From Chloroflexia bacterium (GTDB lineage: Bacteria; Chloroflexota; Chloroflexia; Thermomicrobiales; JALYUS01), in assembly GCA_025924435.1 (NCBI GenBank), contig JAICIL010000125.1, positions 1 through 11,742 of the forward strand: a DNA stretch of 11,742 nucleotides, given 5' to 3'. How positions within the stretch are numbered: the first letter of the stretch is position 1; each line of letters opens with the position of its first letter. A model generated the notes under the pieces. It was not told the DNA's origin, made no database searches, and saw only the letters and a list, made by a program, of their open reading frames with translations. Shown here piece after piece: positions 1,084 through 11,742 of this stretch. A program made the position numbers and the translations under genes.

Positions 1084-1330
1084 CGTCGCCTGGCTCCTCT
1101 CCCCATCATTTGCGGTTATCCCGCCTCTGCGGTGTCCGCATCGTCCCGAGAGAATGCATCCTACCAAGTCAATGGCAGCACCTTCGGTGCGGTGATCGCT
1201 TTTCAGGTGCCGAGTTGGGACGAGGCCACAGCCCAAGCCGGTATGCGAGCAAGGACAGGTTCGCCAAGATTGCAGCAAAGATGTGCCGGATAGGTCGCGG
1301 CTAGATCTGCGGAGGAGATCGCTCCTTCTT
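1084..1330. other. Non-coding gap upstream of the APH-family gene
   Basis: No convincing gene is visible here. The gap holds the upstream region of the APH-family gene and the downstream region of the MalG-like permease gene. A small perfect hairpin (GCACC, loop TTC, GGTGC) lies at 1178-1190 but has no T-run, so it is at best a weak terminator. On the minus strand TTGACT (1172-1167) resembles a -35 box, but no good -10 box follows at 16-18 bases. Confidence 0.4.
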
Positions 1331-1351
1331 CGAACCTCGAACCTCGAACCC
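1331..1351 (-). repeat. GGTTCGA heptad repeat (three units)
   Basis: On the plus strand CGAACCT occurs twice, followed by CGAACCC; on the minus strand this reads as GGTTCGA units. The array starts two bases after the TAA stop of the MalG-like permease and runs in that gene's sense direction. Its period and GGNNNGA pattern match the GGACTGA arrays at 2365-2391, 11117-11172 and 11582-11609, so I treat it as a member of the same repeat class with a different core. Confidence 0.75.
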
Positions 1352-2364: not shown

Positions 2365-2391
2365 CTCAGTCCTCAGTCCTCAGTCCTACGT
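2365..2391 (-). repeat. GGACTGA heptad repeat at the MalF-like stop codon
   Basis: On the minus strand three GGACTGA units run away from the gene, the last one incomplete. They are preceded by related bases (GGACGAA, GACGTA) that encode the last residues of the permease. The TAG stop at 2388-2386 shares its G with the first GGACTGA unit, so the repeat reaches into the coding end. The same heptad recurs around the four-helix-bundle gene near 11.2-11.6 kb. Confidence 0.85.
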
Positions 2392-9473: not shown

Positions 9474-11117
9474 TTGGGCAACCGCCATATTGCCGGGAGA
9501 GGCGTTCGCCTCTACCATAGCGCCAGCGGCACAGCAGGGCAGAATGCATCTGGCTCCCCTTTCCCGATACGGGAAGGGGGCCGGGGGGTTAGGAATATCG
9601 GTAAGCGTGTCACGTCCCCGGCCACGATCGCGGCGAACCCGCTCGCGCGCGGCTACGACACCGGCGGGTTCTACGACGAGATGTTCGTGCCGGGATCCGG
9701 CGGGAAGGTCACGCCCCGGCCGCACTATCGCCCGCTCGCCGCGCAACTCGCCCCGTTGGACGCAGGCGACCTCCGCCACGCGAGCGACCTCGCCAATCGC
9801 TCCTTCCTCCATCAGGGCATCACCTTCACCGTCTACTCGGACGCGGAGCACGGCACGGAACGCATCTTCCCCTTCGACCTCATCCCGCGCCTCATCCCGC
9901 CGGACGAATGGCAGCTGATCGAGACGGGCCTCCAGCAGCGCATCCGCGCCCTCAATCTCTTCATCCACGACATTTATCACGATCAGGAGATCCTCGCGGA
10001 CCGCGTCATACCGCGCCAGTTGATCGTCCGGGCGCGCCACTTCCGCCGCGAGGTCGTCGGCATTGACGTGCCGCACAACCTCTACATCCACATCGTCGGC
10101 AGCGACCTTGTGCGCGACGCGAGCGGGCGGTATCTCGTCCTCGAAGACAATCTGCGCAGCCCGAGCGGCGTCTCGTACGTCCTGGCGAACCGGACGACGA
10201 TGCGGCGCGTCCTGCCGGATTGGTTCGGCGAATTGGGCGTCCGCTCGGTGGACCATTATTGCGGCCAACTGGTCGAGAATCTGCGCGCCCTCTCGCCCCG
10301 CCCCGCCCCGCGCGGCTCCGGCGGCCCGACGGTCGTGCTGCTCACGCCGGGCATCTACAACTCGGCGTATTTCGAGCACGCCTTCCTCGCGCAGCAGATG
10401 GGCATCGAACTGGTCGAGGGGCGCGACCTCTTCGTCGTGGACAATCGCGTCTATCTGCGCACGACGCGCGGGCGCGAGCCGGTGGATGTCATCTATCGCC
10501 GCGTGGACGACGAATTCCTCGACCCGCTCGCCTTCCGGCCGGACAGCGTGCTCGGCGTCGCGGGACTCCTCGGCGCGGTGCGGACGGGGAATGTCGCGCT
10601 CGCCAACGCGATCGGCACGGGCGTCGCGGACGACAAGGTGATCTACCACTACGTCCCGGCGATCATCCGCTACTACCTCCATGAAGAACCGATCCTCGGC
10701 AATGTGCCGACCTATCTGCCCGCCGACCCCGAACAGCGGGAATACGTGATCGCGCACGCGGGCGAACTCGTCATCAAGGCGGCGAATGAGAGCGGCGGCT
10801 ACGGCATGCTGATCGGCCCGAGCGCCGATGAAGGGGAGATCGCGCAATTCCGCGCCCGCGTCGCCGCTAACCCGCGCGACTACATCGCCCAGCCCGTCAT
10901 CCCGCTCTCCCGCAGCCCCTCCTTCATCCCGGACGACGCGGGCGATGGCGGGCGGCTCGAAGGGCGGCACATTGACCTGCGCCCCTACATCCTCAGCGGC
11001 CCGAAGGAGATTCATGTCCTCCCCGGCGGCCTCACGCGCGTCGCCCTTCGCCGTGGCTCACTCGTCGTCAACAGCAGCCAGGGCGGGGGGAGTAAAGATA
11101 CATGGGTGCTCAGGTAG
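9474..11117 (+). CDS. Circularly permuted ATP-grasp protein (DUF404/DUF407 type)
   Basis: Matches circularly permuted type 2 ATP-grasp proteins, predicted ATP-dependent carboxylate-amine ligases. Family landmarks are GYDTGGFYDEMF near the N-terminus, HQGITFTVYSDAEHGTERIF, YLVLEDNLRSPSGVSYVL, TPGIYNSAYFEHAFLAQQMG, VDVIYRRVDDEFLDP, GTGVADDKVIYHYVP, GGYGMLIGP, and VVNSSQGGGSKDTWVL at the end. Known family context: these genes neighbour alpha-E and transglutaminase-like genes and are predicted to make or modify peptides. The start is unresolved. The only nearby canonical in-frame codon is TTG at 9474 (547 residues), which would translate the REP-like repeat and has no Shine-Dalgarno site. The conserved part begins about 9630, and no ATG, GTG or TTG occurs in frame from there back to 9474; ATC at 9597 is another candidate. 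The next in-frame ATG, at 9681, is too late. Confidence 0.88.
   Translation: MGNRHIAGRGVRLYHSASGTAGQNASGSPFPIREGGRGVRNIGKRVTSPATIAANPLARGYDTGGFYDEMFVPGSGGKVTPRPHYRPLAAQLAPLDAGDLRHASDLANRSFLHQGITFTVYSDAEHGTERIFPFDLIPRLIPPDEWQLIETGLQQRIRALNLFIHDIYHDQEILADRVIPRQLIVRARHFRREVVGIDVPHNLYIHIVGSDLVRDASGRYLVLEDNLRSPSGVSYVLANRTTMRRVLPDWFGELGVRSVDHYCGQLVENLRALSPRPAPRGSGGPTVVLLTPGIYNSAYFEHAFLAQQMGIELVEGRDLFVVDNRVYLRTTRGREPVDVIYRRVDDEFLDPLAFRPDSVLGVAGLLGAVRTGNVALANAIGTGVADDKVIYHYVPAIIRYYLHEEPILGNVPTYLPADPEQREYVIAHAGELVIKAANESGGYGMLIGPSADEGEIAQFRARVAANPRDYIAQPVIPLSRSPSFIPDDAGDGGRLEGRHIDLRPYILSGPKEIHVLPGGLTRVALRRGSLVVNSSQGGGSKDTWVLR
9498..9513. repeat. Perfect 7-bp hairpin AGAGGCG-TT-CGCCTCT
   Basis: A perfect inverted repeat with two loop bases lies in the region between the divergent lipoprotein and ATP-grasp genes. 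Together with the REP-like element 39 bases downstream it makes this region unusually rich in hairpins. It could be a repeat fragment or a regulatory site; there is no T-run to suggest a terminator. Confidence 0.5.
9552..9592 (-). repeat. REP-like element, second copy, reverse orientation
   Basis: On the minus strand this reads as a CCTAACCCCCCGGCCCCC head followed by a hairpin ending in GGGGAGCC. The stem pairs 9556-9566 with 9570-9580 around ATA, with one G.T pair. The head and the closing GGGGAGC match the element at 2287-2361, so I read them as two copies of one family, the second with a much shorter stem. It sits just before the conserved start of the ATP-grasp protein. Confidence 0.7.
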
Positions 11118-11176
11118 GATGAAGGGCCGAGGACGAAGGGCCGAGGATTGAGGACTGAGGACTGAGGACTGAGGGG
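11117..11176 (+). repeat. Degenerate GGNNNGA heptad array before the four-helix-bundle gene
   Basis: Starting with the G of the ATP-grasp TAG stop, eight consecutive 7-base units follow: GGATGAA, GGGCCGA, GGACGAA, GGGCCGA, GGATTGA and then three GGACTGA, closed by GGGG. The last bases (GAGGGG, 11171-11176) stand five bases before the ATG of the next gene and act as its Shine-Dalgarno sequence. The array therefore fills the whole gap from stop codon to ribosome-binding site. Confidence 0.9.
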
Positions 11177-11181
11177 CAGCA

Positions 11182-11580
11182 ATGGGCAAAGTTGAGCGGT
11201 TCGAGGATTTGATCGCGGGGCAGAAGGCACGGACGCTCACGCGCGAAATCTATCGCGTAACGAAGCAAGGCGAATTTTCCACAGATTACGGCCTTGTGCG
11301 TCAAATCCAGCGCGCCTCCGTCTCAATCATGTCAAATGTCGCCGAGGGATTCGAGCGAGGCGGGCGGGCAGAATTCCACCAATTCCTCTCGACCGCGAAA
11401 GCATCGTGCGCGGAAACGCGATCACTTCTCTATGTTGCACTTGACGCGGAACACCTCGATGGAGAGACATTCGGGCGATTGCTCGAAAATGCCGACGAAG
11501 TCGCGCGAATTGTCGGTGGCCTACGCGCCAAAGTCGAACAACAACGCGACGAACAACGCACCGCACGGAGAGACGCATGA
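11182..11580 (+). CDS. Four-helix-bundle protein (S23 / IVS family)
   Basis: A 132-residue cytosolic helical protein of the family first seen in intervening sequences of 23S rRNA genes and also found as free-standing genes; its molecular role is not settled. The hallmark is QIQRASVSIMSNVAEGFERGG (41-61) followed by EFHQFLSTAKAS (64-75), which matches the family core. The C-terminus is charged and Gln/Arg rich. By hand count about 40% of codons end in A or T, against about 10% in a sample of the neighbouring ATP-grasp gene, so recent transfer is likely. The start has GAGGGG five bases upstream, supplied by the heptad array. Inverted heptad arrays lie on both sides, and the gene separates the ATP-grasp and alpha-E genes. 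No 23S rRNA sequence is present here. Confidence 0.92.
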   Translation: MGKVERFEDLIAGQKARTLTREIYRVTKQGEFSTDYGLVRQIQRASVSIMSNVAEGFERGGRAEFHQFLSTAKASCAETRSLLYVALDAEHLDGETFGRLLENADEVARIVGGLRAKVEQQRDEQRTARRDA

Positions 11581-11581
11581 A

Positions 11582-11609
11582 CCTCAGTCCTCAGTCCTCA
11601 GTCCTCAGT
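11582..11609 (-). repeat. GGACTGA heptad array, four exact units
   Basis: CCTCAGT occurs four times in tandem on the plus strand (GGACTGA on the minus strand), one base after the TGA of the four-helix-bundle gene, and is followed by a partial unit. It has the opposite orientation to the array before that gene. It ends 14 bases before the alpha-E start codon, which has no recognisable Shine-Dalgarno sequence. Confidence 0.95.
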
Positions 11610-11623
11610 CCTGACGCGAAGCG

Positions 11624-11742
11624 ATGCTGAGCCGCATCGCTGAATCGTTGTACTGGATTGGGCGATACGTCGAGCGGGCCGAGGATACGGCGCGCATCAC
11701 GGACGTGAATTACCACCACACGCTGGAGATGGGCGCGTCGCC
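11624..11742 (+). CDS. Alpha-E domain protein (DUF403), N-terminal part
   Basis: The first 39 residues are visible before the window ends. [25 protein letters not shown] is the characteristic beginning of alpha-E proteins, all-helical proteins encoded next to circularly permuted ATP-grasp genes. The pair is predicted, with a transglutaminase-like peptidase often found nearby, to form a peptide-synthesis or peptide-modification system; the biochemical function of alpha-E itself is unknown. The ATG at 11624 is the natural family start. No Shine-Dalgarno sequence is seen upstream; the preceding bases are the end of the heptad array and GACGCGAAGCG. Translation may depend on an unusual signal here, or the insertion of the four-helix-bundle cassette may have removed the original site. 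Confidence 0.9.

Follow-up and report, generated by a model that had tools for sequence, protein, structure and literature searches.

Inverted heptad arrays around S23 family genes suggest a widespread selfish element in bacterial operons and a possible source of seven-base repeats

The stretch of DNA analyzed here, hereafter the window, comprises 11,742 nucleotides from a Chloroflexia bacterium and carries near its end a gene for a 132-aa four-helix-bundle protein of the S23, or 23S rRNA-IVP, family (11182..11580, + strand; PF05635, E 6.1e-32). The gene lies in a host operon between a circularly permuted ATP-grasp gene upstream (CP_ATPgrasp; 9606..11117, + strand; PF14403/PF04174) and an Alpha-E gene downstream that is cut by the window end (11624..11742, + strand; PF04168), and heptad array fills most of both intervening gaps, which measure 64 nt and 43 nt, respectively. 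Inverted-repeat and tandem-repeat searches with shuffles delimited an upstream arm of G-rich tandem GGACTGA heptads (11144..11174, + strand), and an inverted-repeat search and RNA fold delimited a downstream arm of tandem CCTCAGT heptads inverted to the upstream one (11582..11612, + strand). As period-7 arrays these span 11143-11174 (4.6 copies) and 11582-11612 (4.4 copies); the tandem-repeat search extended the upstream array outward by two degenerate 14-nt units (11116..11143, + strand), such that this array starts inside the ATP-grasp stop codon, and the downstream array starts 1 nt past the S23 stop. The arms are 31 nt each with 30 of 31 positions matching (97% complementarity), confirming a first-pass annotation that had placed the S23 gene inside GGACTGA inverted repeats, described there as 30-base arms with 29 of 30 matching. 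Their inverted-repeat score is 28.5, whereas 300 dinucleotide shuffles reached 10.5 at most, which rules out a chance origin. The A/T-richer codons ascribed to the gene were also borne out, with a GC3 of 0.59 compared to 0.88-0.91 in three other window genes.

The only PDB sequence match of the window S23 protein was 2gsc_A (E 2.6e-9), and this one solved relative is a pentamer. Among the ten window proteins scanned with Pfam we found no transposase and no reverse transcriptase, and the cassette itself carries neither gene, which counts against reading it as selfish. The window heptad occurs a second time as a solo array, CTCAGTC x3.3, located without an S23 gene between two ABC permease genes (2365..2387, + strand). 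Next to this solo array lies an inverted repeat (2300-2357) whose 28-bp arms match perfectly around a loop of 2 nt, and a different heptad, TCGAACC, is present in three copies in another intergenic gap of the window (1330-1350).

The ATP-grasp and Alpha-E genes were said to adjoin normally, and they do so in relatives: among the 80 best relatives in the matches listed, all with at most 62% identity to the window ATP-grasp protein, the Alpha-E start lies downstream of the ATP-grasp gene in 76 loci and within 190 nt in 72, with a median gap of 37.5 nt over the 76. The empty-site comparison that the first-pass annotation had proposed at this junction found an S23 gene in none of these 80 distantly related loci, rather than a gene carried by all relatives without arrays. 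Four of the 76 gaps were longer, from 380 to 1235 nt; one of 1.2 kb in Okeania (L046, 11470-12636) is full of heptad arrays and longer repeats but holds no S23 gene. Repeats were also seen by eye, again without S23, in the long gap of locus L072.

We collected S23 genes from five Chloroflexi genomes, 40 relatives of one of these, 50 further genomes, and plasmid records, of which 11 out of 26 were taken. S23 matches were present in 27 of the 41 genomes made up of one Chloroflexi genome and its 40 relatives and in 30 of the 50 further genomes, which belong mostly to other phyla. The loci are the best matches of each search plus 60 more chosen by high score, rather than every match, and after leaving out five repeats and one gene with too little flank, the sample comprised 154 S23 genes, including that of the window. 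Matching inverted arms, counted at an inverted-repeat score of at least 14, flanked 121 of the 154 genes; the controls gave 6 among 600 random intervals taken from L001-L080 and 3 among 400 pairs of mismatched arms. Each element thus has arms of its own. The remaining 33 genes, some of them partial or only weakly related to the family, had no clear inverted pair, and this counts against the selfish-cassette reading proposed below. The best period was 7 or 14 in 85 of the armed elements, 8 in 23, 9 in five, and another value in eight, while the unit sequence varied from element to element. Thus, the search for arrays at S23 genes of other genomes that had been recommended found most of them flanked by inverted arrays, and of the proposed GGACTGA-linked element the period and the inverted layout are shared but the GGACTGA sequence is not. 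In the upstream arm, G outnumbered C in 106 of the 121 elements and was outnumbered by it in 11. An assembly error is unlikely to explain a layout that is found again in independent genomes. Searches of 50,697 phage records revealed no S23 relatives at E 1e-3. In many bacteria, S23 genes are commonly packaged in inverted arrays, suggestive of a selfish element with a wide distribution.

Two loci of this collection had additional peculiarities. At L178, the inverted arms are 49 nt long (score 46.5) and continue past the heptads into sequence without repeats, and L155 holds two S23 genes 1.1 kb apart whose proteins are 95% identical and whose units are different. Among cyanobacteria, Trichormus variabilis ATCC 29413 carries an S23 gene on its plasmid C.

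Where neighbors could be called, the cassettes were mostly oriented with their host genes. The direction of neighboring genes was called by homology, which was right for six of seven window genes and left one uncalled; a second approach based on ORF length and codon G content was dropped after making no right calls on five known window genes. Across 92 different sites, 32 elements could be called on both sides (neither side in 33), and in 27 of these 32 the S23 gene was co-directional with both neighbors; it was opposite to both in two, and the neighbors disagreed in three. In Nostoc edaphicum (L137), the S23 gene runs opposite to both annotated neighbors. Host sites included CRISPR-Cas operons: L142 of Picosynechococcus PCC 7003 has its cassette between cas10 and a gene of the Cmr3 family, and L138 of Anabaena sp. 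90 has one between cas6 and cas4. One gene pair, cysD/cysN by eye, carries a cassette in both a Chloroflexi (L083) and a Verrucomicrobia (L213) genome, with different units.

The window cassette resembles the S23-bearing intervening sequences (IVSs) within 23S rRNA genes of Leptospira, Coxiella, and others, which have a sense S23 ORF, a length of ~0.45 kb, and complementary terminal arms. Likewise, the window has an S23/IVP ORF on the + strand between + strand genes, with which it probably shares a transcript, and complementary 31-nt ends that are predicted to pair as a 31-bp stem. Unlike rRNA IVSs, it sits between two protein genes, ATP-grasp and Alpha-E, outside any 23S rRNA gene, and cassettes of this type elsewhere reach up to 14 S23 matches in a single genome. 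One collected copy, on plasmid AZO_p2 of Azospirillum lipoferum 4B (L140), consists of an S23 gene and inverted heptad-type arms within a full-length 23S rRNA gene, as in an IVS, and therefore rRNA IVSs and operon cassettes look like one kind. BLAST with the L140 rRNA found no other rRNA-located S23 gene among the collected loci, and this proportion of 1 in 154 counts against the kinship. The excerpted text of PMC4990558 describes the Coxiella 23S IVS as an S23 ORF with two to three tandem GACAGAT heptamers upstream and a 28-bp terminal stem, and reports cleavage of this heptamer-bearing IVS by RNase III in vitro.

The first-pass annotation had proposed a small cassette that travels, and the presence, absence, and exchange of different cassettes at two other orthologous sites support this idea, though transposition itself was not observed. 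At site F (15 loci, relatives of G086), G086 and G097 share one S23 cassette, and G087 and G096 hold another at the same junction, with only 38% aa identity between the two S23 cores. The left flanks of G087 and G096 match G086 at 96% and 94%, respectively, and the right flank of G087 at 94%; the right flank was not found in G096, G118, and G126, and its match covers only 34-41 nt in G125, G106, G104, and G103. In other relatives, the junction held a hairpin or repeat-like sequence but no S23 (G109, G116, G106), a long array containing a run of N (G100), or a short gap of 41-67 nt (G124, G101, G125, G104, G103). Among the 11 loci compared at site D, a cassette was present in G007, G013 (where the match is split in two), and G006, internal deletions in G010 and G011, a period-9 hairpin without S23 in G009, and a cassette with other units in G026 and G153; the right flank was not found in G002, G021, and G014. 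From these sequence comparisons we infer insertion of S23 cassettes. MITEs and REP elements are short and intergenic, with inverted ends and gene-less derivatives. The S23 cassette is like them in all these respects, and in a transposon-like manner it has terminal inverted repeats and is present or absent at two orthologous sites in relatives, but it differs in that its ends are tandem arrays of variable sequence and no transposase was identified in the window.

The S23 ORF itself appears to be maintained. We tried dN/dS on 15 S23 pairs and obtained a finite ratio in nine and none in six; the ratio was below 0.3 in eight of the nine and 0.88 in the ninth, which had a very low dS, indicating purifying selection on the ORF in the pairs tested.

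We found that the length of the unit, which is 7, 8, or rarely 9, goes with the lineage of the S23 protein. On a tree of 144 proteins and 109 columns, in which many forks are unresolved, period 7 versus 8 required 13 changes over 114 rows, a number that within-genome label shuffles reached or undercut in 0 of 1000 trials; after hand-thinning to one row per site (98 rows), the shuffles averaged 18.4 changes, and 5 of 1000 needed no more than 13. A clade supported at 85, with 12 rows from Chloroflexi, cyanobacteria, and Verrucomicrobia, had period 8 in 11 rows and one uncalled. A profile of nine clade proteins was then searched against 143 and 150 genomes, and 60 loci were taken, four of them already known. 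Strong new members, with a score of at least 145 bits, numbered 46; the period could be called in 35, and 30 of these had period 8 as predicted, four period 7, and one period 9, compared to ~16 of 110 with period 8 in the rest of the first S23 set (Fisher p 1.5e-14, relatedness uncorrected). Inverted arms scoring at least 14 were present in 33 of the 46 and absent in 13, which counts against the selfish-cassette reading, and ten weaker clade relatives were divided among period 7 (five), period 8 (two), and uncalled (three).

Heptad and octad arrays also accompany S23-bearing genomes in the sampled genome pieces, away from the S23 genes themselves. For this comparison, we used pieces, mostly contig starts, of 10 S23-bearing and 10 S23-free genomes without correcting for kinship; many S23-bearing genomes in the sample had shorter contigs. 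Outside this sample, cyanobacterial genomes included 12 with no S23 match and eight with 5-11. Period-7 arrays numbered 23 in 686 kb of S23-bearing sequence versus one in 844 kb of S23-free sequence (Mann-Whitney over genomes p 0.002), and period-8 arrays numbered nine versus none (p 0.035), though one S23-bearing genome (G034) had no arrays in its sample. None of the 33 period-7/8 arrays lay within 400 nt of an S23 gene in these pieces, which held only two S23 genes, a point on which the first-pass interpretation has to be modified.

These solo arrays raise the possibility that the array comes first, i.e., that slippage makes heptad arrays, which act as insertion or recombination hot spots where S23 lands as a passenger. 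The excess of sampled arrays over S23 genes fits such an order of events, as do the solo arrays and hairpins at the same junctions in relatives, but arrays are nearly absent from S23-free samples, unit length tracks S23 lineage within genomes, and the arms are in inverted orientation, unlike the halves of a single interrupted array, and we thus regard it as rather improbable. A less likely explanation still is that S23 is an ordinary host gene whose arms are conserved as a stem for RNA processing or termination. The 31-bp stem (z of -4.3 for the whole element), the sense-strand placement among co-directional genes, and the RNase III cleavage of such a stem in an rRNA IVS described in the passages from PMC4990558 are in line with this role. 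Selection on an RNA stem had been expected to yield an excess of G-U among arm mismatches, whereas we counted 114 G-U versus 151 A-C; RNA pairing is therefore not visibly selected, which also counts against the cassette reading below, and the matching of the arms looks like a DNA-level process. A stem also needs neither period 7 or 8 nor a tandem layout, and its presence varies among close relatives. A third alternative, in which slippage and template switching at hairpins during replication suffice to match the arms at the DNA level and S23 has an unrelated cellular role, agrees with the mismatch types and with L268, where the arms of one copy have drifted apart and each is still regular, but leaves unexplained why S23 genes in particular carry arrays and why unit length follows the S23 clade, making it highly improbable.

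We consider it fairly probable that the window holds a small IVS-like selfish cassette within a protein operon, whose S23 protein acts on its tandem-repeat ends. In such a cassette, the host operon would provide transcription, the arms would pair in the RNA, and RNase III could cut them as in rRNA IVSs; both neighboring messages would be left intact, and we propose that insertion therefore costs little. The S23 protein may bind the repeat arms and, together with host polymerase or recombination enzymes, extend, match, and spread them, with unit length set by the geometry of the protein. Hairpins and solo arrays that lack S23 would then be non-autonomous by-products of the cassette. According to the extracts of PMC10053308, PF05635 resembles Avd in sequence and structure, and with this resemblance to a retroelement factor an RNA-to-DNA step is conceivable. 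Avd of diversity-generating retroelements is also like S23, as pictured here, in being a protein that acts with a repeat-bearing RNA, but unlike such retroelements, the window has no reverse transcriptase among its ten scanned proteins.

S23 IVSs and heptameric repeats are each already known. The first-pass annotation did not recognize the arrangement as a described element, a view that needs qualification, as 23S rRNA IVSs carry S23 between complementary arms, in Coxiella with heptamers (PMC4990558, excerpts). Heptameric SSRs or STRRs of Xanthomonas (GGGAATC), Nostoc, Calothrix, and Beggiatoaceae (TAACTGA) are, like those of the window, intergenic tandem 7-nt arrays, and Rehm et al. reported 70 and 75 inverted heptad pairs in two Xanthomonas genomes (PMC4692102, in part). 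The terms "S23" and "four helix" are absent from the main text of the Xanthomonas/Nostoc and Beggiatoaceae heptad papers. Within open PMC, which excludes subscription papers and the bioRxiv collection, only the available portion of PMC4990558 brought S23 and heptamers together, and the two were not joined in the retrieved passages of PMC4679880, PMC4692102, PMC8700078, PMC10053308, PMC10910872, PMC4853749, and PMC6749651. Similarly, no paper among the open PMC matches listed linked S23 genes of operons to inverted arrays of heptads, or unit length to the S23 lineage, in the portions covered.

Neither the abundance of heptameric repeats nor the role of S23/IVP has an accepted explanation in the covered portions of the open PMC papers, and the link between heptads and S23, with unit length following protein lineage, merges both puzzles into one experimentally accessible question and extends rRNA IVSs from a ribosomal RNA curiosity to a class of selfish elements in protein operons. 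The puzzling seven-base repeats of bacterial genomes could have a source in S23 elements. More tentatively, and with less confidence than we place in the cassette, S23 proteins may be rulers, each lineage making or maintaining arrays of fixed unit length (7, 8, rarely 9 or 10) and free sequence, both in inverted orientation on either side of its gene and as solo arrays at other genomic positions. In that case, S23 elements would be a source of much unexplained heptameric repeat content in bacteria, and rRNA IVSs would be merely their best-known insertions. Unit sequence tracked the S23 protein only weakly, which counts against the cassette reading: its correlation with protein identity was r 0.085 for period 7 (38 of 1000 permutations as high) and r 0.31 for period 8 (0 of 1000). 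Arrays without S23 and the S23 arms of the same genome had units in common only slightly more often than by chance, in 11 of 32 cases compared to a null mean of 6.6 and maximum of 13, and this likewise counts against it. Heptad hairpins were also seen at L337 and L340, with loops of 20 and 35 nt that are too short for a gene.
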